Of a DNA stretch of 64,000 nucleotides, positions 401-63,500 are shown piece after piece (the first letter of the stretch is position 1; every line of letters starts with the position of its first letter). The position numbers were made by a program, and so were the translations under genes. Below the pieces are notes generated by a model. That model was not told the origin of the DNA. It was given only the letters and a program-made list of their open reading frames with translations, and made no database searches. The stretch covers positions 18,395,062-18,459,061 of the forward strand of contig NC_049984.1 of NCBI RefSeq assembly GCF_000003815.2, written 5' to 3'. This stretch comes from Branchiostoma floridae. Its lineage: Eukaryota; Chordata; Leptocardii; Amphioxiformes; Branchiostomatidae.

Positions 401-1196
401 TCTAATTGAATGTAACTAGGGCACAGGACTCGAAGCATCATTAAGATATCTCAAAGGACGATTTCCCATTACTGACAAAAAATAAATTTAGAATTAGTAT
501 ATCATCATCCAAATCTGAGTGATATTTCATCTCTTTCACAAAGGTGACTTTTTAACACTCAAAATGCCCTGTGTCCTTTTCTTTGTCAAATTAGACATAA
601 GATTATAACGTTAAGAAGTCAAAAGAGCGTCCAAAATACCACCTGCACACTTTAAATCCATGTCCTGTTCAAAATTCAAAATGTTTTAAATCTATGTCCT
701 GTCCAGCGCGATGAAATCTTGAATTAAGTATTTAACCTGAGGAGTACCAAGGTCAAATCAAGGTCAATGTGAATTCAAGGTCCTCATCGACTCCCGATGG
801 ATGAACAATATCACCAAGGTCAACGGTGTGACATCGCTGAAGCGCCCGGAAAGATGTCAATTTAGCCAATTTTTCAACCTCCTTGAATTAGCCCACTTCA
901 TTAAAAGTACCATTACCACATTTGCGGCTCGAGAGTTGCTACAAAAAGCAATGATACCCCGTTACGGAGTCGCTATAATACTGTTACTAATAAAATGTTT
1001 TTACTCTGTCGACTCAGTTAAAAGGCCACCAGACGGATCACATTGCACGGAAATCGGGGTTTACCACGGCGCTAAATGTCATGTAACGGTCTTGTATTAC
1101 ATATATCAACCTTTAATGTTAGATTAGTCACGGATTTATTGCTTAAAGCATTGACCTTTTATCACAACAGGATTACTTAGACATATCGCTTTTAGC

Positions 1197-1303
1197 TAGC
1201 CTCCATAGCAGGCTAAAATGGGCGGCTATGAGAGAGGCCAGCAATCAGCGACCCAGTACAAAAAGTGCCAAAAAATCCCATAGAGAGCCTGCTATGGAGG
1301 CTA
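1197..1303. mobile_element. MITE, TAGCCTCC ends, 9-bp target duplication
   Basis: Perfect terminal inverted repeats TAGCCTCCATAGCAGGCT, with GCTTTTAGC directly repeated at 1188-1196 and 1304-1312. 107 bp, non-coding. Confidence 0.85.
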
Positions 1304-2186
1304 GCTTTTAGCCGCCTTTCTCTTGACTTTACACTTTGATGTTTTTAAACTTGAAAGTGGCTTGGTGAAGATTTATTATCCTATTAGCTACTTAATTTCT
1401 CTATTTACAAATGACACAAATCGGTTTGTCACAAATAGTTCCCGCGTTTTAATAAAATTCGTTATATCTATTAAATAAGATATTATCATCTCCAATTATC
1501 TATGAAAAACATTGTCCAGTTAAGTCAGTGAACGTTCACAGATAAATAAATAAATAAATAGATACACAGTACATTCATAGAATGTGTAGGTTATGGCTGG
1601 TATATCAAATACATTACAAGACGGGAAGTTAACAAAGTTGTTAGAAATCTTTGCATGCTGTATTATCACAACAACATTTCATTGACTGCATTTACAAAGG
1701 AATTGCCACTCACAGTAGTAGTATTTTCGATGCGCAAATGTTATTGAGTATCCAGTCGTCACGGCTAGTAAATAAAAGAGATCGAGATGGACCAAAACGT
1801 GAGGTATATGTAAAGAAGTGTGAATCGTACCGATAACATTATTCAAATTAGCTCTTCTACCACTCGTGACACGCCTTCCTATTCTGTGAAAACCTTATGT
1901 GAATAAACCCCATACACGTATGCAACATACAAAGTGAGGGTGTTTTCCGAATATATCATATACCCAAGATGTCCGATTTCTACTACTTCTACGACCGTTG
2001 AGAGCAATATATGGCCTATCTCGGTCAATATGGACCATGGTAAAATCCCAATTGATATCAGCCCTACAGCGTCGACTGTGGCTAAACAGCCCTATACAAG
2101 AATGACAGTCTGTGCCACATAGGGCACATCTGTGAGAGCATCACAAAAACTACAGTATTCACATTCTTCACTATCTGTAGTTTCCT

Positions 2187-2393
2187 TTACGTTGCTCGAT
2201 GTTTGATCAGCAGTAGATGTAGATTTTTGACGTCACAAGGATCGACCATCTCGTCCCATTTGGGCAGGGCTCTCCAGTCTACTTCGTTCCACTGCAGACC
2301 GCACCGCTTGGCGGCTTGGTAGATCTCCCACTCGAAGTTGTGTGTCTTCTTCCGCGTCCGGTCCTTGTACGCCAGGACAAAAACTGCAGAGGG
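2187..2393 (-). CDS. Methyltransferase (-) exon 6 with stop codon
   Basis: Begins PSAVFVLAYKDRTRK, contains AAKRCGLQWNEVDW and ends HLLLIKHRAT then TAA. It parallels the last exon of the paralogue (PSSVLLLSYNDRAK ... ECGLEWTDI ... HLHLMVFMKG). An inverted-repeat element lies only a few bases upstream of its acceptor. Confidence 0.8.
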   Translation of the reverse strand, partial: PSAVFVLAYKDRTRKKTHNFEWEIYQAAKRCGLQWNEVDWRALPKWDEMVDPCDVKNLHLLLIKHRAT

Positions 2394-10543: not shown

Positions 10544-10773
10544 TACAGTCAAACCTGTATTAGGGGCCACCTCTACAGAGGGGGCACCTGTCCATAGTGG
10601 CCACTTTTTGTCGGTCCCTTGATTATTTTATCTACAAGTTGTCACCTCTATACAGAGGCCACCTGTCTACAGTCAAACCTGTATTAGGGCCACCTCTATA
10701 CAGAGGCCACCTGTCTATAGTGGCCACATTTGTCCGGTCCCTTGAGTGGCCACTATAGACAGGTTTGACGGTA
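10544..10773. mobile_element. TIR element with CAGTCAAACCTGT ends and internal duplication
   Basis: CAGTCAAACCTGTATTAGG opens the element, a second copy of the same start lies at about 10671, and ACTATAGACAGGTTTGAC closes it in inverse orientation. CACCTCTATACAGAGGCCAC words repeat inside. Intergenic. Confidence 0.65.
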
Positions 10774-13620: not shown

Positions 13621-13755
13621 ATAATAATATCGGGTGTATTTGCAGCCAATAGGCACCCATTGTTTTTAGTAATGAGGCTGATATACGTGATCTAGGCGCC
13701 TCCTCGAACACAGGACCCCCGTTATACGTCCCTTCCAAAAGACGAATTCGTGAAT
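13621..13755 (-). repeat. SINE body, copy A (headless)
   Basis: A diverged copy of the body at 17335-17484, sharing the AATGAGGCTGAT, GCCTCCTCGA and GGACCCCCGTT segments. No 5S-like head lies upstream on its strand, as expected of a 5'-truncated SINE copy. Confidence 0.6.
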
Positions 13756-14825: not shown

Positions 14826-16974
14826 GTTTGAAGTAACAAAAGGTGGCATCACAACTAACAAGGCATTCATTCCTGTATTATAAAGAAGTGAACTAGTGTA
14901 GTAAAAGTGTGGTACACTGGTATCACTTGCTAAGCTGGCAACTAGTCATGGCTTCCATATAGGCGGCCCTTTTACAACAATCCCACAAGTTTCACTTCTG
15001 CAACTATAGTCATGGCTGTACCCTCCCTGGTGTCACTTCTACAAGTATGTTTATTAGGCAACAACACAACATGTTTGCCTACTTTGGTCTATGTGGCCAT
15101 CCCCAAAGAGGGAAAAAATCTTGTTGTTTTTTTCTCTGAAATCAGGCAAAAATGAATGAGCGCGCTGATGTTATCCATAAGATTTACTTGCTGTAGCCTA
15201 ATCGTGGTGTGGTGGTGTGGTGGCTTTCGGGTGGTTTCGCGCCATTAGCTTGGCATTTAGAGTGCAGATAATGAGACATCTAATTAGCTGAAAACACTTG
15301 TTACAGACAAGTAACGCCACTTGTAAAACAGCTCGATCTAATTATAAGATTAAAAAGAAGATACTGAGAATTGGCCATGGGCAAATCTAGTTCAATTTGC
15401 CGCTAAATGGACAGTCGTGTAATATAACTTTTCAATAGAGAATGCAATTTATCCTTTATTGGTCATGCAATTAAAATATGATTATATTACTATAGCTAAG
15501 CAGAGCATTTCCGAATGCCAGACATGTTTATTCAAAGTGGTCAGTGCTTCAAGGACTATCGCGGACAAAAATAACGGTGCTAAGTATGATCCCATTTACA
15601 GCACACTCGCTATGTGGTCATGACCTCCGGCTAGACCGAACGCTGGTAAGCGGCTTGTTAGTCCAGACCGACAGAAAACTGCGTACGCTATTCAACGTCA
15701 AAACTTAATGTCGATGTTACCAAATTTTGGCGCTCAGTTGTAGAACGATATCCCTCTAGAACACCTTCACCCTTGCTTAAGTTCAGCATATTTAAATATA
15801 GCCTTCTCAATAGTAACCATAGCTGATTGCCACCATAGTAAATTTCCCACGCTTTTCTAATGTTCTATTATATTTATGATACAAATGATAATTGTTATTG
15901 ATATTTTGTAGACGTATGTAAACATTTGGCGTTAAAGTGTTAACATTTACTATGTTGCTATTTAAATGCAATGCAAAAAGCTGTAGATTCCTGTATAGAT
16001 GACTAAAAAAAGAGATAAGAAATTTGCAATCCGTCTATCTCTTGAAAAAATATAATATCAGATTACATATCTATATATGTAATATGTTTTATACAAATCA
16101 ACAATAGCAGCGTTCAACTATATTCACAGAACGTACGGTCAAAGTGTATCCAATTTCCTAGTATATCAGATCGTTTTATCCTAATGTATTACGGTGTGAG
16201 TACCGTACCATGGTTTAGTCATGGGAGGGCCGGATTTAACTTCAGGATGCAAATTTTATCTTTTTATTTATCTATGATACAAATGATAATTGTTTTGATT
16301 TTTGTCTTCAGTGGATTGCCAAAATATATCATACGCGTCTTTGAGCAGCATTTTGTACGTCTCTTTTTATTGGTGACGAAACGTTTGAATTTGTCAACAC
16401 TAGGAGACCAAACTGATGATGCCGCAAAACACTTCTACAAATTAAAATCAAGACGGGGAGGAACATGCTTTGAGACTATGTTCCAAATGATGTTTTGACG
16501 AGTAACAGACGTACCTCCCAAACGTAAACAGAGATATGAAAATTATACAGTGACCTCGCTTCACCCAGTAGGGCGGGTGTGACAGTATTCCCCCTAAATG
16601 CTGCTCGGTGCTTTTCGTAGTATTAAGAATGTCGGTCAGACATTCTGGTCGTCTCCGATGACAGCCGAGCGGAGCCGACGGGGCGACCATGTCCACCTCC
16701 GAGCGGTTCCTGATCATCGTGCCTGCGTCGGGCCCGGCTAAACCCCGCTTTCCTCGGTAACTATGCTGCTCATGACGACAAGATAACACTGCATGGTATT
16801 CACCTTGGCACCCGGCCAGGCCTTCTTGGGACTTTTGGCATTATACCCGTTTTAGTGGAGTGACGTTTCAGTAGCGTTACACAAGGGGACACTTCTATTT
16901 TTGACTGACATGGTATGATCTGGCCACGCATATGCGAAGTCAAAACAAGTTCAGGGACAGAACACGGTTACGTT

Positions 16975-17147
16975 TAGCCTGGGTACCACCCGAATGGTAG
17001 CTCACTTCAACTTTTATTATATACTAGTACAGTCGCTTCTCGCTCTGACATTTATCATACACTATATACAGTCGCTTCTCTGCTATTTGACGGGCAGCAG
17101 AAGCGAACATAGGAGCGAACTACTTTATCAGGATGGTACCCAGGCTA
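16975..17147. mobile_element. MITE, TAGCCTGGGTACC ends, 9-bp target duplication
   Basis: Inverted ends TAGCCTGGGTACCA and TGGTACCCAGGCTA. Direct GGTTACGTT at 16966-16974 and 17148-17156. 173 bp, with an internal pair of AGTCGCTTCTC words. Confidence 0.85.
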
Positions 17148-17334
17148 GGTTACGTTGGCACTGCATGTATTATCATCGTGTTGTTTTCATCTTTCTGTTT
17201 GAATATCAGTAATGAAATGCCTTAATTCTGGGCTGCCAAATAGCAGTGACAAGCTACCCAATCATGGCTACTACAGCCTCGGACTAGTCACTAGTTATTC
17301 GTAGTAACCGCTGGGTATGAGTGCATGAGGCCTA

Positions 17335-17484
17335 GTTTAATAATAATCACCAGGTGTATTTTGCCAGCCAGTAGGTACCCAGTATGAGTAATGAGGCTGA
17401 TTAACGTGGTCGAGGCACCTCCTCGAGCACGGGACCCCCGTTTTACGTCCCTCCCGGAAGACGATTTCGTGGAAAGCTTCGTGA
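17335..17484 (-). repeat. SINE body joined to the 5S head, copy B
   Basis: On the minus strand this follows the 5S-like head, separated only by a later insertion. It shares GGAGGGACGTAAAAC-GGGGGTCC, GAGGAGG-GCCTCG and CATTACT...GGGTACCTA with 13621-13755. Bodies of this kind occur in broad animal SINE superfamilies; the superfamily assignment is inference. Confidence 0.6.
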
Positions 17485-17492
17485 GGCTACAG

Positions 17493-17682
17493 TAGTCTCT
17501 ACCAGACTCCGAATCGCTGGAAAAATCGTAGAAATGGAACAAATAGAGGGGTAAGCCGGCCAGAGGAATATAACCGACCAGGGAACAGCACGGGATCGCG
17601 AGCTGTTCCCTGGCCGGTTATATTCCTCTCTATTTGTTCCATTTCTACGATTTTCCAGCGATCCGGAGTCTGGTAGAGACTA
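17493..17682. mobile_element. Palindromic MITE with 9-bp target duplication, inside the SINE
   Basis: Ends TAGTCTCTACCAGACTCCG and its inverse; the whole element folds on itself with arms of about 85 bp around ACAGCACGGGATCGCGAGCTG. It is flanked by direct AGGCTACAG (17484-17492 and 17683-17691). That sequence is the 3' end of the 5S-like head, so the element jumped into the SINE. Confidence 0.85.
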
Positions 17683-17684
17683 AG

Positions 17685-17803
17685 GCTACAGCAATCCGGA
17701 CGTCCTTGGTTGGTCTCCCATCCAAGCACTGTCCGGACCGTCGCGTTGCTTAACTTCCGAGATCGAGGGATCGGGTGTACCAACGCGCCACGCGGCCGTA
17801 GCA
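17685..17803 (-). repeat. 5S rRNA-derived SINE head
   Basis: Read on the minus strand this is a diverged 5S rRNA: GCTACGGCC at the 5' end, CACCCGATC, GATCTCGGAAGTTAAGCA, GCTTGGATGGGAGACC and GCTGTAGCC at the 3' end, in the right order and close to full length. The internal control region (box A and box C) is largely kept. Substitutions in the middle, and a SINE body downstream on the same strand, show it is a 5S-headed SINE and not a functional 5S gene. Confidence 0.75.
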
Positions 17804-18289: not shown

Positions 18290-18440
18290 TGAGGAAATGA
18301 CTAGTCGACTCCTCTGGCCGGCCGACTCTAGCCTGGAATCCAGCCTTGTTAGCTTTGTTCCGCTCCCTACTCGCCAAGCGACTAGGCTAGCTAGGGGAGT
18401 CAGTCGGCCGAGTAGGGACATTCTCCTAGAGGCTAGGCCG
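18290..18440. repeat. GGCCGGC-rich inverted-repeat patch
   Basis: GACTCCTCTGGCCGGCCGAC on the left, then CTACTCGCC...GGCGAG-like and GGGGAGTCAGTCGGCCGAGT on the right, with TAGCCTGGAATCCAG in between. It looks like nested remnants of the TAG-ended elements seen elsewhere. Confidence 0.45.
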
Positions 18441-19430
18441 ACTCCCTTAGCGCACTATTGACTCTGTCCAATTTCTACAATTACTAATTAGACCACCAAC
18501 GGAGGTGGTAGAGGCTGGGGGGGGGGTAGGGGGCGGGTTGGAGCTGGATGGAAAAAAAGAAGAGACGTGTTAACTGGATGGAAAAAAAAATTGGCCAAAT
18601 AGGCCAAGTAAGTTGTCATGGGATTTCAGTCAGTCGTTTGCAGTCTATCCGGCCAAAGTCCCTTATTACAATTCGGCCAGCCAGAGACTAGGGAAAAGTA
18701 GAGCCAACCACCCAACCACCGCGACCGACACATCTGCTTGAAGAATACAGTATGGACGCCACATGAACAATGTTGTTACATTGAATTTTGCGATCAGTCA
18801 CTGTCGTAAGCAGTTTCATAATTCACAAAGCTTTAATGGTCCCCATACTGGGAGGAGTTTCATTTAGTAGCTTAAATCGACATATTCTCCCTAGACACTG
18901 CTGCAAATATCCAAGATAGGGAGAGTTGATCTTATCAATTTTCTTCTGGTCGTTTCGGATAACGTTTCTTTAGATGCAGCAGAAATTTGTTTATCTTTAG
19001 TTGTAAACAAGAAAAACGCGGCCAGCTTGGAACGCCCATGTGTACATGTTTAGCGAACGGCATGCTGGGAAATTACTGCTAGCAGGGAAAGATTGAAGTA
19101 TCACCTTTCATTTGTCTTTGCAAAGATGTATTGAGCAACATGGTAAAGTTTGTCTGTGACTAGTATTTTCGTATCACTAAGGCAATTTTGACTTTGTACT
19201 TCGGACGTATTTCCACAAAGAAATACTGTATCAATAGCGTGAAAACCCACCCCGGATTAAATCGTGCTACAGATTACTGAATTGTTACCGCCCGCTAGTG
19301 TGAAAGCTCCGCCCCACCCACGATCAACAAAAACAAAACCTTGCATGCATTCGACAACAGAACACAGCTGACGAGAACCATGTACTGTCTGTTCCCCCCT
19401 CTGCTCTACCGTAATACGGCTACCGATAAC

Positions 19431-19584: not shown

Positions 19585-22500
19585 GTAAATTTATTATTGC
19601 AAGGCATAATTTTTGTGTTAGCATGGATACCAGACTCCGGCCCGATCTAAATATCTATATCTTTATTTTTTAACCTCCTTGGTCTAACTCAGTAACTCAG
19701 GGGGCCTGGTGTAGAAGTTCCTTGTGGGCACGTTGTACCTCCGGAGCCGAAAACTCTGTAAACAGTCTGGCATCCAGGCTATAGTAATCTCTGCGAATAA
19801 GGTACTGTTTCTGGTATGTTTGTGTGCTAAGTCAAGATTCTCTCTCTCTCTGTGTTTGTGTGTGGTAGGTAGGCTATTGTTGAGTTATCAATGAAAAATG
19901 TCGATTTGGGGCATCGTACAGCAGTATAATTTTTCAAAGTCTATTTTATTTTTAATCCAGCGGTGCAGGTTACGATTTACGCTGAACTCGTATCTGGCTG
20001 CAAAGTTTCAGCGATGACTGGCGTGATTACGCCGCTTCAAGTTTTAATGATGTAAACTGTAAACTGTTATATACGTTGTCTGACCCTTGCCTCTTCCCTC
20101 ATGCCTCAATGAAAAGCGGTCTGCAGGCCGATTTGAGCTTTCATGAATAAACAAAGGTTCAAACCAAACAAACAAAATATATTGTGTGATTTTTCTCCAG
20201 AACACACGCTTGCCGAATGCTTCTTATCTATAACAAATTCTAAGACATTTTTTCACTCCATCACAGTCTACTAGTATCTCCTAGTATTTCAAAAGGCGAT
20301 CAGCATAAATTATGCGCTAAAGGCTTCACTTCATATGTATTTGATTGGTCACACCAAGGAGCTCCTTGGTCACACCAAGGAGGTTAAAGAAAGAGACCTC
20401 CTTGGTCACACTGAGGGGCATTTTTACATCCCTTGGTTACACCAAGCATGAACAATGCTTGGCAAATGCAGCACAAAACCTCCTTGAATGATCAACAAGA
20501 TCTTGACAAGATCAACCATGTAGCTGTCAACATTTGAGATGATGTGTCCATAGTCTCCGTACTATAAAAAGTACCAGCTTTCATTCACGATATCTTCGTT
20601 GTTTGTTTAGGCCCCCATTCCACTAGGCGATCGCTCTGCAACCTAGTCTCCAAGCAGACCCTACGGTGCCTTAGAAATAGTATCAAAGCTGGCAAGGCAC
20701 CAGGTGCCCGTTTGACTCCCTTAGCCGGCTATCTCCCTTTGGCCGGCTATACTCCTTTGCCAGCTTTGATATTGTTTCCAAGGCACCGTAGGGTCTGCTT
20801 GGAGACTACTGCAACCTCGCTGTGAACTCAAATCGGATTCGTGTCACAATTGACTTACTTGCAAAATGTAAAAGGGTGACTAAAAGTAAAACGACAACGA
20901 AGCACACAAAACGTGGAAGTATTCGTTATTCATGTACGAAAGTCGTTGAGCGCTCTGTAAAATTTTAGATTCGATTCGATTTGGATGAGATAATCTGATC
21001 CTAACTTCCTGCTGAACTGGTACGGGGGTGTTGGGGGATTTCAATAGATGTTATCATTGCAAATTTGCCCAGTCGCACCCATGAAAGAAAGTCCAACCGG
21101 GTCATGAATATTCCCCGGGCAGTGCCTTTACATCAAGCTGTGTAATTGCCGTTTTTTTTTACTTCATTACGTCCATTTTCTCGTTAGTCAATGTTATGCA
21201 AATGTGACAAATCCCTTGTCAATGTTGACATTTTACACAGAAAAGACATATAGAAAAGCAACAGAAATCGACACTGTATACTAGTAATTCTAACTGATTT
21301 TCCCGCCACTCACTGAACACTGTAATTGCACCATGCAAGACACAAAGTTTACCCATTGGATTTGTGGTTCGCAAACAACATCGGTGCTAAAACCACTGTA
21401 ATGGAGTTCCATATAAACAGACAACTACCCTCTTAAACAACTCATTCGTGATAGGATTAACAAAAAGAACGGTCTCTATTGTATTATAGAGTAACTCATG
21501 CACACTCTATGCGTGCATGGGCTAGAGGAACATATGCATGGATGAAACGAAGGGATATTTCCGTTACAACCTGTCAATAAAAGTGCATATACCTGTCGAT
21601 AAAAGTGTACACGTGCATTCACTTTTATACCTGGCACTTCTAGGTGAGATGTACCAGATCCACTGGTTTGTAAAAACATAAACGACTGTAATAATTGGAG
21701 ATCTAATCTGTCCTAATGAGATCAATTAGGGCCAAGAAAAGTAGTTTCATGGATAGCGTCAACGCGCGCATTGATTTTGCACAGTACTAGAATCCAAAAA
21801 AAAAAGGAAATCACTTCTTTCAGACGAAAAGCAACGACTTACGATCGACAAAAGTCGTACAGCGATAACTCAACTAGCGGTGACAATCCGTGAAGTCTCC
21901 GTGGGTGGTATTACAGCTATTTCTAAATACGGTGTAGGCTACACTAATGTGTCAAGGACTTCGGGAATTTCATCCATAAAATTATTGTTATGCGACTTTT
22001 GGACCATGTGGGGTTCGATGCATAAAGCTATGCATATAAAATCTGCAGCACAGCTGTGTCCCTCATCTTCGAGCAGATGTTGACTTCAGCGTTCAGCCTG
22101 CTTGCTTTGCAAATAAAAATGCATGTGCTTTTGTTGAACGTTTCAGGCGTACCCTACCTTTTGTATGTATATAGGTTCCGATCCGCATCCACTTCTCGAC
22201 AAACGTGCAAAATGCTGCAAAACACGAATATTATTAAAGCAATTCAGAGCTGCCTGGAGATTACAGCATCCATACATAAAGATAATACAACTCAACCCCA
22301 GTCCCCTAGTACCCCCTATTCCCCATGTATCTGGGTCCCCTAGCATCCACCAGGCCTTCCTACGGGGGGACGGGGATCGTAGAATTCGGCAAAAAAAACA
22401 TAGAGAAATTGGTCAGGGGAGTCAGTCCACGCTATATTAAAGCTCCCAGTTTCTTGCGCGGCCGGCCAAATCCTCTGGAAGCAAAACTCCCCTGGCAAAT

Positions 22501-25500
22501 GGCCAGCGTAGTCAGTCTGGTACAGACTGTGAGTCCCCGGCAATCTGGACAAAATAAGACTATGGAGATGTTGTCAAATTCTTCCTTATAGTGCGACTTG
22601 CCTCAGATGACCTACAGTGCCAGTTTGGTGCGGAATTCTTTCCGTCACCCAAAAAGAGAGGCATGTTTGTGTGACAGTGGCATTCCTTTCCTATTCTAAG
22701 TATGGAGCCACCAAATCAGGAGCTAACAAACTTAAAGATAAACCTCTGAAAGATGTGTGTCGTTAAAGGTATCATTAAAGCTAAGCACTGTAAAAGTCCA
22801 ACATAATGTGCTCAAGATTTCTTCTGTACCAAGAGTTTTTTCCGAACCACGGACCTCAAGGTTTTGTTGGATTTGTGTTATTTGGTCAGGTGTTGCTTAT
22901 ATGAGCCAATGAATGGGTGGATGAATTGATGGGTGAATACAGATGGATAGATATGGATGGATGAATAAATAAATAATTGATCAGTGATTGAATGAATGAA
23001 TGAATATTTAAACGTCTCAACTTTCTGTTTCACTCCCAGCTCACCTTGTGCTGACGGGACAGCGGATATGGCCGGCTGCTAAGGTAGGGGAATGTGCGAG
23101 ATTTGAGGGAGATGTAGTTAGAACGTGTACAAGCATGAAGTGTGGTACATTTAAGTTGCAAGTTTGTATGAGCGTCCTTGCTTCAGCTCTGGTCATTCAT
23201 AAGTAACCTTACAAAATCTTGCTTCTATACTATCGCGGTACGCCTGACTACTATATATGACCTATACACATTTTCGGGGCTCTCTCGGGTAAGACCTACG
23301 CCACATTTCCAAACCGGGGCCCGGCCGGGCAGCTTCCGGGAACGAAAAGTATGATATAAAAACACCAAACTACACAAGACGTAAAAAGAATAGGCATGGG
23401 AATTATTTGCGTATATTTTTACGTATACATTTCTACTTTTCGCTTCCACATGTACATTAGCCTTGAGTACTAGCTATAGTTGTCCTCGCCAGCGAGAGAT
23501 TTTGTAAACTTAGGCTATATGTCATAAGGACAGATTCCAGATGCATAGAAAGTTGTTTGTTTCCTCCATCTCCAGGTCCTGGCGTTGTATCTCGTGGAGA
23601 ACCCTGACATCCTGCAGTCTGCGGGGTCCGTGCTGGAGCTCGGGGCGGGCCCGGGGCTGCCCGGACTGGTGGCGGCAAAACTCGCGCCCCAGCCCGACCG
23701 GGTGGTGCTCACAGACAACAAGGACCTGGTGCTCGACCTGCTGGACAAAAACATCGTCAAGAACTTCGACAACGGAGACCCGATGGCAGGTGAGAAGATT
23801 TCAACTTTATTTCAAAGACACACACCACAGTTTTAACCATTTTTAGCCACCTTCAGGAGTACTGACCCACTCACTTATGTACTAGCACGTGACCGGATAG
23901 GAACATGACGTCAGTAGTGGGTAGAAAGTGATGACAGACCACGTCAGAGTAATCCCTTCTTATGTTTCTGTGCCAGAATTTGCATTAGAAATTAAAGTAT
24001 AAGAGAAAATTTTCGGTAACTTTGTGCCTTCACAGACAAACCGCGCTGTTGCCATCTAGAGTGGGGAAAGGGCGTGACCGACTTCCGGGACCAATATGGT
24101 GGTTTTGACGTCATCCTAGCCTCTGACGTCATCTACCACCGGCCGGACATTCCGCTTCTACTTCAAACGGCCAGAGATCTACTCAACGACAAGGTAAACT
24201 CTATGCTAGTCGGGACAATCGCCAGTGTTGTTTGTTACCTATAGCTAAGTCACACCTTGAAAACTTGGCTCTCTTGGGTCGCGGCTGTTTTCTATGTAAT
24301 ACACAAATTTATCCTATTAACAGTACTTAGGCTGTAATGCTGCAGTATATTCACATAGAATGTTTGTACATTACGACATAAGACCAGTATATGTACTAGT
24401 GGGTTGTACCTAAGAGAGTGAAAACAATGAATTATTACCTGACAAAAAGGCACAATTACGTGACTATATTTACATACAATTACATACAAGTGTACATGTA
24501 CAGATGTAAAAATTTACTTGGTACCTTCTAAGTTTACCTATAAGTTTAAACAACCAATATGGCGGACGATACTTACGTCATAATCACGTGAGTGAAAATA
24601 AATCTCCAAGCAGATCCTACCGTGCCATAAAATAGTATCAAAGCTGACCTAGGAGTATAGCCGACTAAAGGGAGTCAAACGGGCTCCAGCAGGTACCGAA
24701 ACACACTTCTACACTCGTAGTACACGCCGGCTTCACTCCTCTGCCAGTTTTTGATATTATCTTATGCTATCGTAGGGTCTGCTCGGAGATTAGAGCTATG
24801 TCCAGTATCAGGGTGAAGTGCACGAAGTTAGGGTGTACGAAGTTGTACTAAGTTACAACCGTTTACCACTGGCTTTGAGGCTATATCAGGAGTCACAGAT
24901 GACGTCAAAACATTTATTGGATGACGTAATCTAACTTCGTACAGTAGGCAGGGTAGGGTGTCAAGTGTACGAAGTTGTCCGAAGTTGTGCAAAGTTACGT
25001 GACGTCATCTAACTTCGTACAGTAGGCAGGGTAGGGCGGCATGTGTGCGAAGTTGTCCTAAGTTGTGCAAAGTTACGTGACGTCATCTAACTTCGGACAG
25101 TGGGCAGGGTAGGTCAACAAGTGTGCGAAGTTGTCCTAAGTTGTGCAAAGTTACGTGACGTCATCTAACTTTGGACAGTGGGCAGGGTAGGTCAACAAGT
25201 ATGCGAAGTTGTCCTAAGTTGTGCAAAGTTACGTGACGTCATCTAACTTTGGACAGTGGGCAGGGTAGGTCAACAAGTGTGCGAAGTTGTCCTAAGTTGT
25301 GCAAAGTTACGTGACGTCATCTAACTTTGGACAGTGGGCAGGGTAGGTCAACAAGTGTGCGAAGTTGTCCTAAGTTGTGCAAAGTTACGTGACGTCATCT
25401 AACTTACATACAGGGAGTCACAAAAATAAAGTTCCGAAATTACGCTACTCAAGACAAACACTACATTCAACTCATTTCCTTACGTCGGTATTGACTTGTG

Positions 25501-26620
25501 AATGTTGACAAGGTAAATAAACAGGGCATGTCAATCAAAGTCATTGTTACTCTTTATTCAGGCAAACGATTTGAACCGAGGTGTTTAACCGAGTGCTAGC
25601 CATAAGCCTTATGAAGGCTATTCCATCATAAGACTGTACTCGAGTACTCCAGCATCGCATCCTGGAGGTTGCCTGCGTGTTCCTTGCTCTAGTGAACAGG
25701 TATTGTAATCTTGCAAAATGATTATAACATTTTCTATGCAATATTTCTATGCAATATTTAATAGTGACTATTAAGAGAAAATTCTTATCCCTATACGACA
25801 TAAGTACTTACCATTTTTGTTAAATTAAGCCTCGGTACTCCCACTGGTAGGTGAAGGCTGGTTATGTCCCACCAAAAATACAGACTTTTTAGATCTCGAT
25901 CTAATAACTTTTATATTTACGTCATAACTTCCGACAACTTTGGTAACCTCCCGTCTTCTTATACAAAGTTTGGATGACGTCATAATTAAGATGACGTCAT
26001 AACTTCGGACAACTTCGGACAACTTCGTACACCCCCCGGCTGACTGTCCAAAGTTAGATGACGTCATGGTTAGGGTGACGTCATAACTTTGGACAACTTC
26101 GGACAACTTCGTACACCCCCCGGCTGACTGTCCAAAGTTAGGATGACGTCATGGTTAGCGTGACGTCATAACTTCGGACAACTTCGTACACCACCCGGCT
26201 GACTGTCCAAAGTTTAGATGACGTCATAACTTCGGACAAGTTCGTACAACTTTGGACAAGTTCGTACAACTTTGGACAACTTCAGACATCTAACTCAACT
26301 TAGGACAACTTCGTGCATTTCACCCTGATACTGGACATGGGTGGGAGATTAGGGAAAAACACCATAGTTCAATCGTTCACTTATTCGAATATTCATCCCT
26401 TCACATTCCCGTTCTTCCCCAGCCGTCTTCCGTGCTGCTGCTGAGCTACAACGACCGCGCCAAGATCTTCCAGCAGACGGTGAAGGAGACCGCGCAGGAG
26501 TGCGGGCTCGAGTGGACGGACATTCCATTCCGAGAGCTCCTGCCCAACTTCTCTCAGCTCGTACATCCGGACGAAGTCCGACACTTACACCTCATGGTGT
26601 TCATGAAGGGTGTGAGCTAG
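19431..26620 (+). CDS. Methyltransf_16 (METTL21-like) methyltransferase paralogue, five exons, complete
   Basis: The spliced model joins 19431-19584, 23040-23083, 23576-23789, 24036-24193 and 26423-26620 (768 nt, 255 aa plus stop). All introns are GT-AG with phases 1, 0, 1, 0, the same as the minus-strand paralogue. Motifs: LTGQRIWPAAKV (56-67), VLELGAGPGL (85-94), LTDNKD (111-116), HLEWG (144-148), FDVILASDVIYHRPDIPLL (161-179). This is a full class I SAM-methyltransferase domain with catalytic-fold residues intact, so it should be active, probably on protein lysine; the target is unknown. The start at 19431 has a strong Kozak context (AACATGG). Two upstream in-frame ATGs (19341, 19380) are alternatives. 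The CAG|G at the arginine codon near 19509 sits where the paralogue has an intron acceptor, so a different upstream first exon is also possible. AATAAA lies 343 bases after the stop. Confidence 0.87.
20644..20808. mobile_element. Palindromic MITE, TAGTCTCCAAGCAGACC ends
   Basis: Arms of about 28 bp begin TAGTCTCCAAGCAGACCCTA and return at the right end. CTGCAACC is repeated directly on both sides (8 bp). The interior holds GTATCAAAGCTGGCA and its inverse, and GGCCGGCTA. It sits in intron 1 of the plus-strand methyltransferase. Confidence 0.8.
22918..23010. repeat. Degenerate GGAT/GAAT tetranucleotide tract
   Basis: GGATGAAT, GGATAGAT and TGAATGAA words just upstream of exon 2 of the plus-strand methyltransferase. 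Confidence 0.8.
23040..23083 (+). CDS. Methyltransferase (+) exon 2 (LTGQRIWPAAK)
   Basis: A 44-nt micro-exon, too short to appear as an open reading frame. It follows a pyrimidine-rich acceptor (TTTCACTCCCAG) and ends in AAG|GTAGGG. It joins phase 1 upstream and phase 0 downstream and reads AHLVLTGQRIWPAAK. Confidence 0.88.
23576..23789 (+). CDS. Methyltransferase (+) exon 3 (SAM-binding motif I)
   Basis: Encodes VLALYLVENPDILQS, VLELGAGPGLPGLVAAK and VVLTDNKDLVLDLLDKNIV. The acceptor is CTCCATCTCCAG and the donor GTGAGA. It is GC-rich compared with the flanking introns, as expected of coding sequence. Confidence 0.9.
24036..24193 (+). CDS. Methyltransferase (+) exon 4 (HLEWG, FDVILASD)
   Basis: 158 nt. 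Encodes DKPRCCHLEWGKGVTDF, then FDVILASDVIYHRPDIPLL and TARDLLNDK. The acceptor is TGCCTTCACAG and the donor GTAAAC. Confidence 0.9.
24600..24795. mobile_element. Decayed relative of the 20644 MITE
   Basis: TCTCCAAGCAGATCCTAC on the left and GTAGGGTCTGCTCGGAGA on the right, with TAGTATCAAAGCTG and AGTTTTTGATATTATC inside, follow the element at 20644 with many substitutions. It directly abuts the composite element starting at 24798. Confidence 0.7.
24798..26338. mobile_element. 1.5-kb inverted-repeat element built of TGACGTCA satellite arrays
   Basis: Ends ATGTCCAGTATCAGGGTGAA (24798-24817) and its exact inverse (26319-26338), followed inward by TGCACGAAGTT on both sides. The left array (about 24830-25405) has a 78-bp unit with GTGCAAAGTTACGTGACGTC; sites repeat at 24997, 25075, 25153, 25231, 25309 and 25387. 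The right array (about 25960-26300) is a related inverted set with CCCCCGGCTGACTGTCC. A unique centre of about 550 bp separates them. It lies in intron 4 of the plus-strand methyltransferase. Confidence 0.8.
26423..26620 (+). CDS. Methyltransferase (+) exon 5 with stop codon
   Basis: Encodes PSSVLLLSYNDRAKIFQQ through HLHLMVFMKGVS then TAG, the C-terminal strands of the methyltransferase fold. The acceptor is CGTTCTTCCCCAG. Confidence 0.9.
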   Translation, partial: PSSVLLLSYNDRAKIFQQTVKETAQECGLEWTDIPFRELLPNFSQLVHPDEVRHLHLMVFMKGVS

Positions 26621-36659: not shown

Positions 36660-36770
36660 GTGCAGGTCGCGTACTGTTCCCTGGCCGGCTACACTCCTCT
36701 GGCCGGCTTACTCTTCTATTTATTCTATTTCTACGGTTTTCCAGCGACCTGGAGTCTGGTAGAGACCAAG
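36660..36770. repeat. Half copy of the 17493 MITE family
   Basis: GTACTGTTCCCTGGCCGGCTA followed later by CTATTTCTACGGTTTTCCAGCG and GAGTCTGGTAGAGACC matches the right arm of the element at 17493-17682. The left arm is absent. Confidence 0.6.
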
Positions 36771-41105: not shown

Positions 41106-41480
41106 GAAACACACAATGACGTAATTGCTGTTTGTTTTACTAGGGGTGAAACCGTCATTTCACCATGTTTCACTCTTTTGTCACGTAGGTGCAATATTTG
41201 CTTTCACCCTTCCATATTTACATGGGAACAATGCGAATCCGGGTGACACATTTTCACCGTGTTTCACCAACATTCACCCATTATGTGCCATTTTCACCGT
41301 ACGCCGTGTGGTAATGATCAAGGAGGTTAAAAAGAGATGGTAGTTGCAATGGAAAGAGATCCTAAAATCTTCCTAAACTTCAACCTACACAAGAATAGCA
41401 TCGGCTGTCCCGACATAGACAGGAGAAAAGCAAGGTAAGGGGTGGACACAATAAACTATACAGCAAAATATGACTTTTAG

Positions 41481-43060
41481 CAAGGAGGTTAAAGGACAGC
41501 ATCAGAAAATTTTCAATTCTTTATTTTCCAGTAGTTTACTCATTAAAAAGTTGATGTACGTCAATTTTTACATTGATCCGCCTAATATGACCCTGTAGAC
41601 ACGTTTGAACTTCGCGCTCTCCTCCTCTCCCCGCCGCGCTGGCCGATGACGTAATGGCCTCGTTCTGATCGTCTGAGATTGTATGACGTCACGGATCCAA
41701 AACTTCTAGCCAGCCATTTTTCTCGGTGAACCTCGGTCCTCTCAGCGGTGAATAATCACCCCGCCATTCTGGAGTTCAGTTTGTTGTTGTTGAAAATTAC
41801 TTTCGTGGACCTGTAAGTCGCATTGTGAGCTGTCTACGAAGCCATAGTCCCCGGGAGACTGAACATGAATAAGCTTGCCTGCGAGTAAACCGCGCGGCGA
41901 CGGGACGAAATCAAAACAATGGCGGTGGGGGAGGTTCACGCACCGTGCTTTTCTGGACTTTTACAAGAGCGAGTTCGGGTCAGTTCTTACCTTCTCCTTT
42001 CCGGACAGCACAGCGATAGTTACACGTAAGCTTCCACGAATTTTGGTTGAATTCACAATTGTCCAACTGGCAGGGACATTAAAAAAAACCATTTTTCCTC
42101 TGACAACATACCCTTGATCGCTACATATCGAACGACCCCCTTTTCGCGCCGAAACAGATAGCACCGCAACTGTACAGATCGTGCGAGTTACGCCTCGCCT
42201 CTCACTTTATTTTCTGTTTCTCGGGTAAATCATCCGGACTGGTCGGTTTTTCAATCATGTAGCTTTGGCAGAGCCCCCTTGGGGTTCATTCAAAACAAAT
42301 CACGGACTCTGAAACGAAGCCGACATTTCGCGCCATTCACAATGCCGGCCTGTGTTGTATGTAAAGACAACAATGCTGTATGTATGTTTCGGCGCGGAAG
42401 GGGGATCGTTCGATATGTAGCGATCAAGGGTATGTTGTCAGAGGAAAAATGTTTTTTTTTAATGTCCATGCCAGTTGGACAATTGTGAATTCAACCAAAA
42501 TTCGTGGAAGCTTACGTGTAATTATCGCTGTGCTGTCCGGAAAGGAGAAGGTAAGAACTGACCCGAACTCGCTCTTGTAAAAGTCCAGAAAGGCACGGTG
42601 CGTGAACCTCCCCCACCGCCATTGTTTTGATTTCGTCCCGTCGCCGCGCGGTTTACTCGCAGGCAAGCTTATTCATGTTCAGTCTCCCGGGGACTATGGC
42701 TTCGTAGACAGCTCACAATGCGACTTACAGGTCCACGAAAGTAATTTTCAACAACAACAAACTGAACTCCAGAATGGCGGGGTGATTATTCACCGCTGAG
42801 AGGACCGAGGTTCACCGAGAAAAATGGCTGGCTAGAAGTTTTGGATCCGTGACGTCATACAATCTCAGACGATCAGAACGAGGCCATTACGTCATCGGCC
42901 AGCGCGGCGGGGAGAGGAGGAGAGCGCGAAGTTCAAACGTGTCTACAGGGTCATATTAGGCGGATCAATGTAAAAATTGACGTACATCAACTTTTTAATG
43001 AGTAAACTACTGGAAAATAAAGAATTGAAAATTTTCTGATGCTGTCCTTTAACCTCCTTG
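41481..43060. mobile_element. Large foldback element with arms of about 680 bp
   Basis: 41481-42159 and 42382-43060 are near-identical inverted arms around a spacer of about 220 bp. The ends are CAAGGAGGTTAAAGGACAGC and its inverse, and CTTTTAG is repeated directly at 41474-41480 and 43061-43067. Each arm holds the same 65-codon open frame (MNLPHRHCFDFVPSPRGL...), with no recognised domain. The spacer opens a short frame MPACVVCKDNNAVC that runs into the right arm. No transposase is present. Confidence 0.85.
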
Positions 43061-43568
43061 CTTTTAGTCCTTCTTTAACCTCCTTGCTTTTAGTCTTCAG
43101 ATGCGCCATATGCATGACGGGTAAAATGTTGATTTGTACCTGTTTTTACAGATTTCATGTTTTTAAGAAACTGACAAATGTCGTAAGTGTTGTCCAAAAT
43201 TTAACATTATTTGGCGGATATCCACAGTATTTGTTGTAGCATTCTAAAGCTATGAAAACTTCATAACTAAATAAAATGATAACATGCTCTTGGCCACAAA
43301 AGAAGTGACCAACAGTAATTATATTGTCTGGCTATGTTACATTTGCTATTTGACCTGAAGTCCAAATTTCTGGAGAATCATTATTTGTTTGGTTGTTTGG
43401 AGGTTTGGTTGTTGAACCTCATATTTAAAACAAGGAGAGTTTTCGGTTTTTACAGTGAGTAGGTTAGTTCCAGTGCCACAAAGCCTGTGTCTACATCAAA
43501 CATGTGTCTAGTTGTAACATATTTTGATTACCCCACAACTCGCTCATTTTTGCATCCCCTTTCCTTAC

Positions 43569-52161: not shown

Positions 52162-52256
52162 GGAGCCATCAGCATGTGTCGGAGCCATCAGCATGTGTCG
52201 GAGCCATTAGCATGTGTCGGAGCCATCAGCATGTGTCGGAGCCATCAGCATGTGTC
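52162..52256. repeat. 19-bp tandem repeat, five units
   Basis: Five head-to-tail copies of GGAGCCATCAGCATGTGTC with a single variant (ATTAGC in unit 3). Confidence 0.95.
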
Positions 52257-55200: not shown

Positions 55201-55489
55201 CAAAGCGTTAAATGACAAGAACATGACCTATGCTGGGATATCGGGTATTCCACAGGTCTTGACGTCAACGCATGCGATGTCCTATTACTCATTCTGGGAA
55301 CTGCGTCAAATGTGCCTTAAATATCCTCACAGCTGATTCGGTATGGGATCTCAAAAACACTTAGATATTAGTCTGAGAAATAACAAGGTCACTTTCTTAA
55401 GTTGTATAATTATAACCTATATAAGTCAAGAGATCACCTGTTTTAACCAAGGATTGATGCAACTTGGGAGTTGGAGTCATAAAAAGCAA

Positions 55490-55693
55490 TGTTACCGGTG
55501 TCTTTATGTTCATGGTTTTTGTGGTGGCTGCTTCACCGCCAAATCACCCGGAACTCAAAATCACCGCAAAAAGTTTTCCATATGATTACAGTTTGTGTAT
55601 ATGGTGCTACTGTCAACTCAAAACTGCCGTGAAAACTCCATTTTCCTGCTGCCGTAAAATTAAGTCCCTGCAAACTTACATGCATTTACAGTA
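55490..55693. mobile_element. TACTGTAAATGCA MITE family, copy 3
   Basis: The right end CATGCATTTACAGTA is clear. CACCGCAAAAAG, CTCAAAACTGCCGTGAAAAC and CTGCCGTAAAATTAAG show the family interior. The left end is decayed. Confidence 0.65.
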
Positions 55694-55806
55694 ACATGAA
55701 ACAAATCTGGCCACCCCATGGCCTTCAAAGTGGGAAAAATTCAGGTAAAATTTGAACTCTTTTCTTCAAAACATCAAAAAGTTTGTACAATGATGAGGGT
55801 CCAACA

Positions 55807-56142
55807 TAGCCTGGAATCCAGTCGTACTGTGCGTTGGTCGCTCTGCTCCTGCCAGTACGTCTGGCATTCGTTAGCATTGGAACGATTGGCATTTGAATAT
55901 TCGCACACTTTATGTGCGCGATTTCTGATTGGCTGTTGGCTCCAAGCCCCCTTCGCAAAGCACCACCAAGGTGGAAATCGAACACACAGAATCATGTTTA
56001 CAGTTCGTAATCGAACGGAACACTACTTCTATCTTTCCCGCATTAGTGACGTAAGGACCGATCTTTCCAATGCTAACGAATGCCAGACGTGTTCGCAAGG
56101 AAGCAGAGCGACCAAAGCACAACACGGCTGGATTCCAGGCTA
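55807..56142. mobile_element. MITE, TAGCCTGGAATCCA ends, 9-bp target duplication
   Basis: 336 bp with inverted ends of about 75 bp (TAGCCTGGAATCCAG... including GGTCGCTCTGCT and CATTCGTTAGCATTGG). Direct GGTCCAACA at 55798-55806 and 56143-56151. Open frames in it are incidental. Confidence 0.85.
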
Positions 56143-57342
56143 GGTCCAACATCTCTCTCTGTCAGTCAGCCAACATACAAAGGAGGATACATACAACATG
56201 TACTTCTGAAATCAATGAGTTTAAATAAACATTGACACTATCTCTTCATGTATGCAGTTTTAATACGCATTACAGTTTGTCTACTTTGTTCTAAATTCTG
56301 TATGCTTGAGAAGATGAGTGGGGAAAAGGATTATACTATTATTTTTTTTTTTATACTTCTTATACTAATTTTTCAGTCATTCACATAATCACAATTCTTC
56401 TTCGATAGAACTTTTTTCTATGAGTGCGCGGGTTTCGATAGCTATAATTATAAAAGTTGTAGCAGTGGATTTCAATGCAGTAACAAATTATTTTGTATAT
56501 TATGATAAATGTTTTTAAAAACTTTGATAATAATAAAACCGCCTTCCTTTTTCTCAGCAGAGACAACGTTAACTGTAAAGATATTATATAATGTTCATAC
56601 TTTAAGGATTGAGCGTACGTAAGCAGATACCTCCATATCGTTCACAAGCTACTCCATGTATCTACAAAATGATGACAGAATATCTGAAAGCTGATATAAG
56701 AGACAACGTTAGTGATACCCCCACCTTCCCTTCCAACCCCCCTCCCCGCCCACATCACTCCAAACTCAACCTTCACCTCAGCGCGTTTGACCGAGTTATA
56801 AACTGAGCAATGTTTTCCACACTGAACCTCGAATATGTATACAACCTACCTCTTATCAGGTTTAAGATAATAAACGGTGGTCTTTACCATCATAATTATT
56901 TCCCCCAACTTCAGTAAAAATCTAAAAATTGGAAAATTCACGAACTTGCTTCTCGAATCTTCGTCGAACATCGTACAACTTCGGCTTCAGATCTCGTGAT
57001 CTCTCGTTCCATGGATAAGCGTGATCTTAAAAAAATTCAGCCAGAAACGAGGAAATACAAGGCGATAACTGCTCATTAATGTATCTTTGTGTGGTTTATT
57101 CAAACTTTACCGCCCCAACTACAGAAATTTTCCATTACGATCTTAGATTATTGTAGAAAAAATAGAAAATAAGGGGATCCCCCTGTCACGTGAGTTTGAC
57201 TTCAACGAGATTTGGTTCTATTTTAAGCGATGACGCATAAATTATGATAATTAGCTTATCTCTGATTGGTTCTTACCTATAAATAGAATAATTAGCTGAT
57301 GACGTTTTATGACGTCTTCGAATCAACTACCTTGTATGATGT

Positions 57343-57350
57343 AATTTGCA
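57343..57350 (+). promoter_or_regulatory. Octamer motif upstream of NFAT5-like start
   Basis: ATTTGCAT, an exact POU/Oct octamer, lies 157 bases before the start codon. CRE-like TGACG-containing sites lie at about 57299-57316 and 57229-57236. The position fits a proximal promoter, but function is inferred from motif only. Confidence 0.3.
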
Positions 57351-57506
57351 TACAGCAAGGGGTAATGCGGCTGCGCGCTTTTTCCTCGTCAGTAGAAGGA
57401 AATATTTTCTGGCGGACGGTCGCAGCAACTTTGATCCGCTGAATCTGATAAGCAGTCCCATAACTTACTAAGGAACAAGCAAGAAAGAACATTTGTAGCG
57501 TTTATA

Positions 57507-57582
57507 ATGCCTTCTGGGTGTGAAGACTCCTTCTTGTACGAAGAGGTCGAGCTGAATTCCCCCGAAAGCTTGTACGGCAAAG
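57507..57582 (+). CDS. NFAT5: NFAT5-like exon 1 with start codon
   Basis: 26 codons: [25 protein letters not shown] and one base, then donor GTGCGT (phase 1). It aligns with the vertebrate NFAT5 start (MPS... L..SPKSLYS), which fixes the start codon. Confidence 0.85.
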
Positions 57583-60500: not shown

Positions 60501-63500
60501 TTTTTGACTTCAGCTTTAAGCTAGCCTGGAAGCATCATTGATGTTAATTCTTTCAAAAGTCATGACTGAACATTTTTAACATCAGACCACATGATTCCAG
60601 GCTAGCTTTGGACATAGGTATCCTGGAGTCTTTCCAGAAGGGAAAGGGAAGTTTTACATTGAAGTCTGCCTAAGGCAAAGGTTTGGTCGATGGACCGGCA
60701 GTTACTGGTATGACTGATGTGACCATTTTGTGCAAATGGCTGACAGAACTTTTGATTTCGCTTGAAGCACCTGCCTTCTTTGAAACTAGTAGTAACCACT
60801 GAAAAGCTTTTGCTTTGAATTCAAATTTTTTTAATTTCCATACTAAATAGTCTTGCTGCAATAATTTTGTTCAGCTACATCAACATGAGGCCAATCAAAC
60901 TTTTCAATTACAAAACATCTGTCTTGTGTGCATGAATGTGTTGAGTGGACATCTGTGTTGTTGCAAATGTTTAAACTCGCACTTTTACCCCTAGCCCTTG
61001 GGCAAGTGGTATGTTGTGAACTCATTCGAGCTGCTTCGTTCAGACACCTCAAATGTAGGTTGGTTTGTTCAATGCTAGTATTTCTTATGTTAGAGATATG
61101 AAAAGGCATTGACTGTAGTATAACATGTTTCATGTCGTTGCCTTGTTTACCCGTGATGTTCATGTATTGTATAGGACAAATGTTGCATGTTATGTGATAT
61201 GTAATTTCTGCCCATTATGCAAGTAAATCTAGTATTTGTAACGTAGGAAAAGATACCTAATTTCAGAAGTGATTAAGATACTGAATGACAGTTTTGGTGG
61301 GTATAGCATAAGGTGCAGGGGATCTTGGAGATGGTGATTACCTTAGAGCTATCTTAAAACAATATCCACTGCGTCTAAATTCTTAAAGACGGTCTGTATG
61401 TGAAGTTGTACACCAACAGTTCTGTCTGAAGTCTAACCCCCTCTCCACAGCGATAAGTTATAGCTAAGCTGACGAAGGCCCACTGCCGAGGTGTCCTGAG
61501 GTCTTACATTCATGCATGGCTCTTGTTGTACGATTCAGATCCCCTGAACCTGAGCATGGGGCCGCCCAGCATCACCACAACCACTACTACCAGTACCCCT
61601 ACGTATGAATCAGCTCTAAGCATTAGTACGTCAGTGCAAGGGGTAAGTAATACCATGGTAAGTGGTGTCCTAAGCCCATCCTCTCTCTCCCCCTTGGGGC
61701 AAAGTGAGTTGGCTACACAGCAGCGGCAGCAGTTGTCGCCATTGTCCAGCCCGGGTGGGTCGCCGCTGGTCAGCGTGTCGGACTCCAGCAACCTGATGTC
61801 GCCCAGCGAGTTGAACACGTCCAGCAGCCTGCTGGTCAGCACCAGGAAGATGAATCTTCGCGGCGACGACAGCTCCGGATGGATGGAGGACGACGATTCG
61901 TCCTCCAGTAACACCAGCAGCGGCGGAGTGGCGCGCTCCATCACTGCCAACGGCCAGCGGAAGTCCCGCAAAGTCTCCGCTAAGCAGAGTCCCTCCAGCC
62001 CGAAGGAAAGAATCAACATGGAGCGGCTGTTTGACGCCGATGGCAGCAGCTGTCAGCCCCAGTTTGAGTTCAAGAAGTTCGGCGCTGACATTGTCAGCAT
62101 CAAGGCGAGAGACTCGCATCAGGGGGTGCCAGCAGACATGCAGAGGTACATACCTGTAGTTGTTGCAGTCTTGTAGGTAGATAGAAAAATCAGACACAAG
62201 TCCCTGTATCTGTGGAGGAAATATGGTTGTTAAAGTACTGTTTGCTTTATATTTTGAAAGACATTGGAAGTTTTGCCTTAAAAGATCAGCAACATTTCAG
62301 AAATTGCATAAAAAAAGAGGGAAGCATGTATTTTTATTAACATTGAACTGTACTTTTCATTGTGAAAAATGAAAAGAAATGCATCAAGTTACATGCATTC
62401 TCCAAATTTCCAACTGTCTTTCCAAATGCAAAGTGAACAGTTTTTGTATCCTGTATTGCATATGTGTTGACTATAACATGAAAAGACGAGACCTGATCTA
62501 CCGCATAGACATTAATCCTTTTTCATCTTCACCTATGTTCCTCTACAGTGCATTGTCCGCCCCACCAACCCTGCTAACGTTGGTGCCAACATCTACCGTG
62601 CCATGCCAAGTCGTAGAGCTTGCACACGTCAACTCCTGCCCAGTCCCAAGGAGGCAGGCTAAAGAACCGAGCCTCAACATGCCAAACTTGAGTAGTAAGC
62701 ATGGCAGCATGCAGCTCAAGATCCTGAAGCAGCCCGAGGTCCACCACAGGGCTCGATACATGACGGAAGGTAGCCGTGGGTCAGTCAAGGACGAATCTGG
62801 CCATGGCTTCCCCACTGTGAAAGTAGGTCACTCGTAATCTCAACCAACCACGGCTTGTAGTTGTAGGTTCTTTACCTAGGGATAAGGCAGCTTTTAGGAG
62901 GTGATTGAGCAACCAAGCAGGGCCCTCTGTTAGTACTGTCTTGATTGCAGNNNNNNNNNNNNNNNNNNNNNNNNNNNNNNNNNNNNNNNNNNNNNNNNNN
63001 NNNNNNNNNNNNNNNNNNNNNNNNNNNNNNNNNNNNNNNNNNNNNNNNNNTTTTATTCAACAGCTTGAAGGCTGCAACAAGTCAGCCACTCTTCAAGTGT
63101 TTGTGGGAACAGACACAGGGAAAATCAAGCCCCACGGGTTTCTACCAGGCCTGCAAGGTGACTGGCCGTAACACAACTCCCTGCACAGAGAGGGACATCG
63201 AAGGGACCACAGTCATTGAAGTGCCATTGGATCCAACAAACAACATGACACAGAGGTGTGTGAAAAACATAAGCTGCAAGCTGTCACTAAAGATATCATT
63301 ATTGTACTATGACACATACCAACTTACATGGAGATACGATTGCCTTACATTGAGCAGTATCATTGCAAATATATCTGTTTTGTATGTGAAAAGTGCCTTC
63401 TTTTTGTCCGTTATGGCTAATGTCCTGTTTAACAGGTCGAGGGACAATTCCATCCAAGGGTAGGCCAAAGATAGATGAAGTGTATATTAGAGCACTTGGT

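Follow-up and report, generated by a model that had tools for sequence, protein, structure and literature searches.

Short TAG-ended transposons of a lancelet genome and their longer relatives carrying a RecQ-like helicase exon

Elements in the window

A 64,000-nucleotide stretch of the Branchiostoma floridae genome (the window; G000:C6:18395062-18459061, within a genome of 513 Mb in 431 contigs) holds several small elements that begin with TAG, end with CTA, and differ in their interiors. What kind of element are they, and which enzymes move them? A sequence-only reading of the window had described six, with TAG(C/T)CT ends; four had perfect 9-bp target duplications, one had a decayed duplication, and one had an 8-bp duplication. 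It took them to be the products of one system acting on many interiors, and it favored a Mutator-like source over hAT. All six were confirmed in the sequence of the window, with ends and flanks as described, the perfect 9-bp duplications being those of 1197-1303, 16975-17147, 17493-17682, and 55807-56142. A scan of all TAGYCT...AGRCTA pairs in the window detected a further element at 18329-18435, and there are two decayed relatives. The elements are listed by position in the window; no strand is assigned to any of them.

1197..1303: 107-bp element; ends TAGCCTCCATAGCAGGCT; target duplication GCTTTTAGC at 1188-1196 and 1304-1312
16975..17147: 173-bp element; ends TAGCCTGGGTACCA; duplication GGTTACGTT at 16966-16974 and 17148-17156
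17493..17682: 190-bp element; ends TAGTCTCTACCAGACTCC; duplication AGGCTACAG at 17484-17492 and 17683-17691
18329..18435: 107-bp element, additional to the six; perfect 9-bp duplication GGCCGACTC at 18320-18328 and 18436-18444
20644..20808: 165-bp element; ends TAGTCTCCAAGCAGACCC; perfect 8-bp duplication CTGCAACC at 20636-20643 and 20809-20816
24603..24792: decayed relative of the 20644 family, additional to the six; mutated end motif, no duplication recognized
36667..36766: decayed half-copy of the 17493 family, additional to the six
55807..56142: 336-bp element; ends TAGCCTGGAATCCAG; duplication GGTCCAACA at 55798-55806 and 56143-56151
60522..60604: 83-bp element; ends TAGCCTGGAA; decayed duplication GCTTTAAGC / GCTTTGGAC at 60513-60521 and 60605-60613

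The decayed duplication of 60522-60604 has mismatches at 3 of 9 positions. The element at 16975-17147 shares its first 14 bases with an end of the 118-bp element nested in locus L061, and the two ends of 18329-18435 are alike over TAGCCT only (6 bp). When empty sites were sought in the window only, no relative inside it spanned any insertion point; the SINE that surrounds the element at 17493 has a relative at 13621-13752, which ends about 20 bp before the insertion point.

The window contains 59 TAGYCT...AGRCTA pairs spaced 40 to 2000 bp apart. Exact 9-bp duplications flank 5 of these 59 pairs, and an exact 8-bp duplication flanks 1. No exact duplication of either length was obtained in 1,224 order-3 Markov shuffles, which averaged 16 such pairs each, fewer than the 59 of the real window. 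Exact 9-bp duplications were likewise found in none of the 1,877 window pairs defined by the 63 other end trinucleotides. The sequence TAGCCTGG occurs 10 times in the window (both strands), against 1.2 expected.

Copies across the genome

The search for such ends that the sequence-only reading had suggested was run over the 513-Mb genome with three end patterns, giving 389 matches to TAGCCTGGAATCCAGNC, 1,400 to TAGYCTCTACCAGACTCC, and 748 to TAGTCTCCAAGCAGAYCCTAC, versus 0 for the control of each; the duplications were mostly 9 bp. Among the first 100 matches listed for TAGCCTGGAATCCAGNC, paired ends were spaced 98, 102, 111, 144, 155, 249, 326 to 342, 419, and 548 to 570 bp apart. Ten TAGCCTGGAATCCAGNC pairs were fetched. 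Six (98, 102, 144, 155, 419, and 568 bp) had exact 9-bp duplications; the other four comprised two with one or two mismatches, one with 8 bp, and one in which no duplication was recognized. Elements with such ends range in size from 63 to 1,044 bp. The smallest unit, met once (63 bp, locus L069), has a perfect 9-bp duplication and a matched end of 7 bp.

For the family of the 336-bp element at 55807, a genome search gave 199 candidate places, of which the best 40 (the window copy and 39 others) were scored. Both ends were kept at 25 of 28 loci (window copy counted), and 24 of these 25 copies had an exact 9-bp duplication, the remaining copy having one mismatch. Among the 3 loci outside the 25, L016 proved to hold a copy that is interrupted by a nested 2,009-bp insert and whose 9-bp duplication is intact. 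Because the 13 closest copies, window copy included, are 97.9 to 99.7% identical, this family must have moved recently. The elements are real, abundant, and recently active, and the occurrence of copies with duplications genome-wide bears out the earlier view that they look like nonautonomous transposons with enzymes encoded elsewhere.

A 2,348-bp unit with both 336-type ends (L106) had the look of an autonomous copy. It was rejected: it is a 336-type element with a nested 2,009-bp insert, which has ends CACGRTGGTCC and a 3-bp duplication, AGT. Four unpaired ends (L111, L112, L116, and L117), with no partner within 0.7 kb, were followed for about 5 kb (L126 to L129), and no partner was found over that distance; L126 is a 568-type copy without the other end, and L127 to L129 match over the last 35 to 62 bp only.

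Length of the target duplication

Duplication length was tabulated by end type. At 15 loci with 17493-type ends there were seven exact 9-bp duplications, four of 9 bp with one mismatch, one with two mismatches, and one exact 8-bp duplication; two loci had none. The pairs without a good duplication were L076, L078 (whose flanks are mutually inverted copies), and L080 (two mismatches). L077 enters this count as a 106-bp element with the same left end; the 1,315-bp pair at that locus has no duplication. The 20 loci with 20644-type ends divided into exact 9 bp (10 loci), exact 8 bp (4), 8 bp but for a single mismatch (2), 9 bp but for two mismatches (2), and none (2), the pairs without a good duplication being L156, L158, L162, and L164, with two mismatches in the last two. 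For TAGCCTGG-type ends, a sample of 59 loci (55 distinct places), picked partly for unpaired ends, gave 24 exact 9-bp duplications, 4 exact 8-bp duplications (L065, L113, L115, and L144), and 31 loci with no exact duplication of 8 to 10 bp. Eleven of these 31 have 9 bp with one or two mismatches, and 20 have no recognized partner or duplication. A 10-bp duplication was met once, in a biased sample of 59 elements chosen for having a duplication. The 45 exact 9-bp duplications that were tabulated have no fixed target sequence.

The duplications are mainly 9 bp, with 8 bp as a regular alternative, and the length is not wholly constant. Duplications of 8 bp are common in the 20644 family and its 1-kb relatives and occasional at other end types. 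Since 20644-type loci mix 9 and 8 bp, the 8-bp case at 20644-20808 is an ordinary member of its family. The proposal of one system with many interiors stands as to the common end architecture, the main duplication length, and the unrelated interiors, but not as to a constant length, 8 bp being regular.

These counts also bear on the alternative that members of several named superfamilies (hAT, Merlin, Zisupton, etc.) are mixed here and share TAG ends by coincidence. hAT elements have 8-bp duplications and ends of the type YARNG. Here the duplications are mostly 9 bp and the fifth base of TAGYCT is C, so that hAT does not fit, in agreement with the doubt already raised about it; the 5 hAT places examined of 33 had no such ends in their short (1.5-kb) flanks. 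The 8-bp duplication in one of the six window elements is like that of hAT or Zisupton, but its source is the 20644 family, which itself mixes 8 and 9 bp. Merlin is described as having ends GG and duplications of 8 or 9 bp (PMC8101967); by that description the duplication length alone would fit, but terminal GG is absent and the ends are TAG. Zisupton/KDZ elements, for which PMC12730594 gives 8-bp duplications (7 for Kyakuja), were also rejected, since exact 9-bp duplications were found in 24 of 25 336-type copies and at 7 of 15 17493-type loci. With, in addition, zero 9-bp pairs in the window for the 63 other end trinucleotides, a coincidental mixture is very improbable.

A helicase exon inside longer copies

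Copies of 0.8 to 1.0 kb with the same ends carry the first exon of a RecQ-like helicase; none of the copies read encodes a complete helicase or a transposase. Two pairs of 20644-type ends, 1,044 and 2,551 bp long, have perfect 9-bp duplications and carry the open stretch ...FEPKKAQLDSILATLEGKDVFVGIATGQGKSLCYQ, in which the 2,551-bp copy differs from the 1,044-bp copy by one substitution. This stretch is RecQ-type helicase motif I. The exon matched Pfam DEAD with E=3.8e-5, under that family's cut-off, and RECQ5 PDB chains with E=2e-6. A genome search gave 66 similar places, at 8 of which the translation was 100% identical to the query. Twelve exon loci were fetched (L171 among them is the same place as L147). 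Eleven are elements of 1,026 to 1,044 bp with 20644-type ends and perfect duplications, 8 bp in 6 and 9 bp in 5; the twelfth is without a right end. These 11 copies are 98.1 to 99.6% identical. Copies that are 98 to 99% identical are thus present in two families, which means recent activity.

A diverged version of the exon, 44% identical to the 20644-type exon, was found at L179, flanked by 17493-type ends at a spacing of about 799 bp; the L179 read lacks the duplication and, at the left end, the first three bases. This exon reads ...DVFVGLPTGAGKTFCFQ...VISPLTALIDDQ and runs to a splice-like GT. It matched Pfam DEAD with E=3.9e-10, over the cut-off, and RECQ5 PDB chains with E=4e-9 (phmmer). 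Three ubiquitin-bearing chains (E of about 4e-11) ranked over RECQ5 for this exon and were discounted as tandem-repeat sums, with no stretch passing singly. The helicase motifs covered by the first exon are motif I and, in L179, also Ia. A third, broken version was found in L076, which is 1,045 bp with 17493-type ends and no recognizable duplication. In all three versions the exon starts about 230 to 360 bp inside one end and reads inward.

The short elements at 17493-17682 and 20644-20808 match only the two end regions of the longer copies. The first matches those of L179 (94% over 104 bp and 98% over 88 bp), and the second matches those of the ~1,044-bp family (95% over 106 bp and 96% over 57 bp). 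For this reason both appear to be internal deletions of helicase-exon elements. Only the elements with 17493- and 20644-type ends are tied to the helicase directly; those of the TAGCCTGG and TAGCCTCC types are tied to it through the common motif and duplication.

Could the elements instead be Mutator-like (MULE) MITEs, and the helicase exon a captured host gene fragment, as in Pack-MULEs? Duplications of 9 bp are typical of MULEs, whose range is 8 to 11 bp, and both the length and the variable interiors are as seen here. MULE domains are present at 27 places of the lancelet genome. Maize Mu, too, is described as having 9-bp duplications (PMC2774946). However, no TAGYCT pair with an 8- to 11-bp duplication was found near the 27 MULE-domain places (flanks up to 1.5 kb), and when 5 of the 27 loci were extended to about 10 kb, 3 had other terminal repeats and none were found in 2. 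TAG pairs around the MULE loci L036/L037 and L055 were rejected as unrelated sequences without duplications. To our knowledge, a helicase exon is not expected in Mutator-like elements, and it is the longer copies with the TAGYCT ends that carry one. Moreover, there are two to three diverged versions of one kind of exon; because they sit alike in differently ended elements, a chance capture would hardly have been repeated. The Mutator-like source that had been favored was not supported by the loci scanned (27, of which 5 were extended), and we regard it as distinctly unlikely.

AcademH as the probable source

We conclude that these are probably nonautonomous, MITE-type DNA transposons of one group, moved in trans by an element with a RecQ-like helicase, most likely a lancelet AcademH. 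The group is marked by ends of TAGYCT(G/C)..., in many cases next to a short hairpin whose sequence varies, and by duplications of 9 (regularly 8) bp. AcademH, of the Academ lineage, combines a helicase with a DDE transposase. The parent element would supply a RecQ-like superfamily-II helicase and a DDE transposase; the transposase would cut at TAG/CTA and make the staggered target cut, and the helicase would assist, perhaps via opening of the ends. Very short, dissimilar interiors would be tolerated since the terminal motif alone would be read, as is suggested by the minimal shared end and the widely varied interiors.

AcademH, a part of the Academ superfamily (Kojima 2020, Mob DNA 11:15), is reported from animals and fungi (PMC10045372, PMC10799480). 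It is described as encoding a helicase and making 9- or 10-bp target duplications; AcademX duplicates 3 to 4 bp, a contrast that seems tied to nuclease versus helicase (PMC10045372). The assignment to AcademH rests on the helicase first exon and the duplication length, AcademH being set alongside by description only, and on both points the lancelet elements are like it. The superfamily-II helicase is represented by its first exon in two end types and, broken, in a further copy. Exact 9-bp duplications were found in 24 of 25 336-type copies, 10 of 20 20644-type loci, and 7 of 15 17493-type loci. There are also differences. The reported lengths for AcademH are 9 to 10 bp, whereas the lancelet elements regularly have 8 bp and had 10 bp once. 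Fungal AcademH is described as low-copy (PMC10799480), whereas the lancelet end patterns number in the thousands and lie mostly on short derivatives where examined. Most likely, these elements are new members of AcademH, a known, sparsely described group.

The frequent 8-bp duplications in two families, the terminal hairpins of changing sequence, and the lack of a transposase in the copies read would also suit a new superfamily, with a transposase and a RecQ-like helicase, that is like AcademH in helicase and duplication length only. We think this unlikely, however, given that a helicase together with a 9-bp duplication is the combination reported for AcademH (PMC10045372). With AcademH as the preferred source, thousands of transposon-end matches in one lancelet genome would be tied to a RecQ-like helicase.

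Known lancelet MITEs include an unclassified Repbase type with 9-bp duplications and LanceleTn; these are likewise small, nonautonomous, and from the same host group, a likeness of description, not of sequence. Kolobok elements insert at TTAA, in contrast to the 45 exact 9-bp duplications here with no fixed sequence. KolobokH is also a DNA transposon with a helicase (PMC10799480), and LanceletTn-2 is named in PMC5802833. In the literature, nothing was found under the name LanceleTn, and TAGCCTGG plus transposon gave unrelated work only.

Terminal hairpin and minimal end

Next to the terminal motif, many ends can form a short stem whose letters vary between families (AGTCT/AGACT, CTGG/CCAG, AGCCT/AGGCT, and TGTG/CACA). 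A stem of at least 4 bp was present in 11 of 22 distinct ends, whereas 2,000 shuffles averaged 16% and never exceeded 41%; because many of the 22 ends are related, this excess is suggestive only. It is conceivable, though doubtful, that AcademH-type machinery reads little beyond the terminal TAGYCT and an adjacent hairpin kept in shape and not in sequence, that the RecQ-like helicase acts on this hairpin, and that new mini-transposon families arise continually. If end recognition were so minimal, almost any stretch between two such motifs would be mobilizable. The extremes that bear on the minimal end are the 63-bp unit, met once, and the window element at 18329-18435, with its 6-bp matched end. 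Natural substrates this small (63 to 107 bp, down to a 6-bp matched end) would make a helicase role in cut-and-paste transposition testable.

A profile search of the genome with TIGR00614 gave 33 RecQ-family matches (best 32 of 254 candidates scored). They include, besides a likely two-exon helicase at C7:9434235-9436190, two pairs of long open reading frames (708 and 684 aa) on different chromosomes, at C1:28786577, C7:14754683, C2:29693607, and C12:21941095.

Long RecQ-family open frames and other loci elsewhere in the genome

Long open frames of the RecQ family occur in two pairs, one of 708 aa (n = 2) and one of 684 aa (n = 2), at the following positions.

G000:C1:28786577, C7:14754683, C2:29693607 and C12:21941095, long RecQ-family open frames

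The paired frames have nearly equal scores and lie on different chromosomes; they are perhaps transposon-borne helicases. Among the long copies that share the ends of the window element 20644-20808 and carry the first RecQ-like helicase exon, L146 (G000:C1:9869020-9871700) is ∼1.5 kb longer than the 1,044-bp copy L147, and the extra sequence contains many inverted GGTCCGGCCGTGAGAATCGGTCCGG-like stretches and a run of N.

At L106 (G000:C11:17295100-17297600), a relative of the 336-bp window element 55807-56142 is interrupted by a 2,009-bp insert, which has CACGRTGGTCC ends and a 3-bp duplication, AGT. L078 (G000:C1:25100880-25101500) is a TAGTCT-ended unit of 438 bp; its flanks, CCTTGACATC and GATGTCAAGG, are mutually inverted copies rather than a direct duplication.

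Other features of the window

24798-26338, tandem arrays in inverted arrangement; their repeat units, 78 and 84 bp long, include TGACGTCA
41465-43076, 1.6-kb fold-back element with 692-bp arms, 98% complementary
61457-62176, 239-aa open frame rich in serine

CTTTTAG repeats lie close to both edges of the fold-back element. The serine-rich frame, for which a Pfam search gave no match at an E value of 0.001, is perhaps a host gene exon.

The 190-bp TAG-ended element at 17493-17682 adjoins a 5S rRNA match.

17683-17803, minus strand, 5S rRNA match (Rfam RF00001, 51.7 bits)

Together with its flank, this match looks like a 5S-headed SINE, and the tail of the putative SINE has a relative within the window at 13621-13752. 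The target duplication of the TAG-ended element lies on the 3′ border of the 5S portion.
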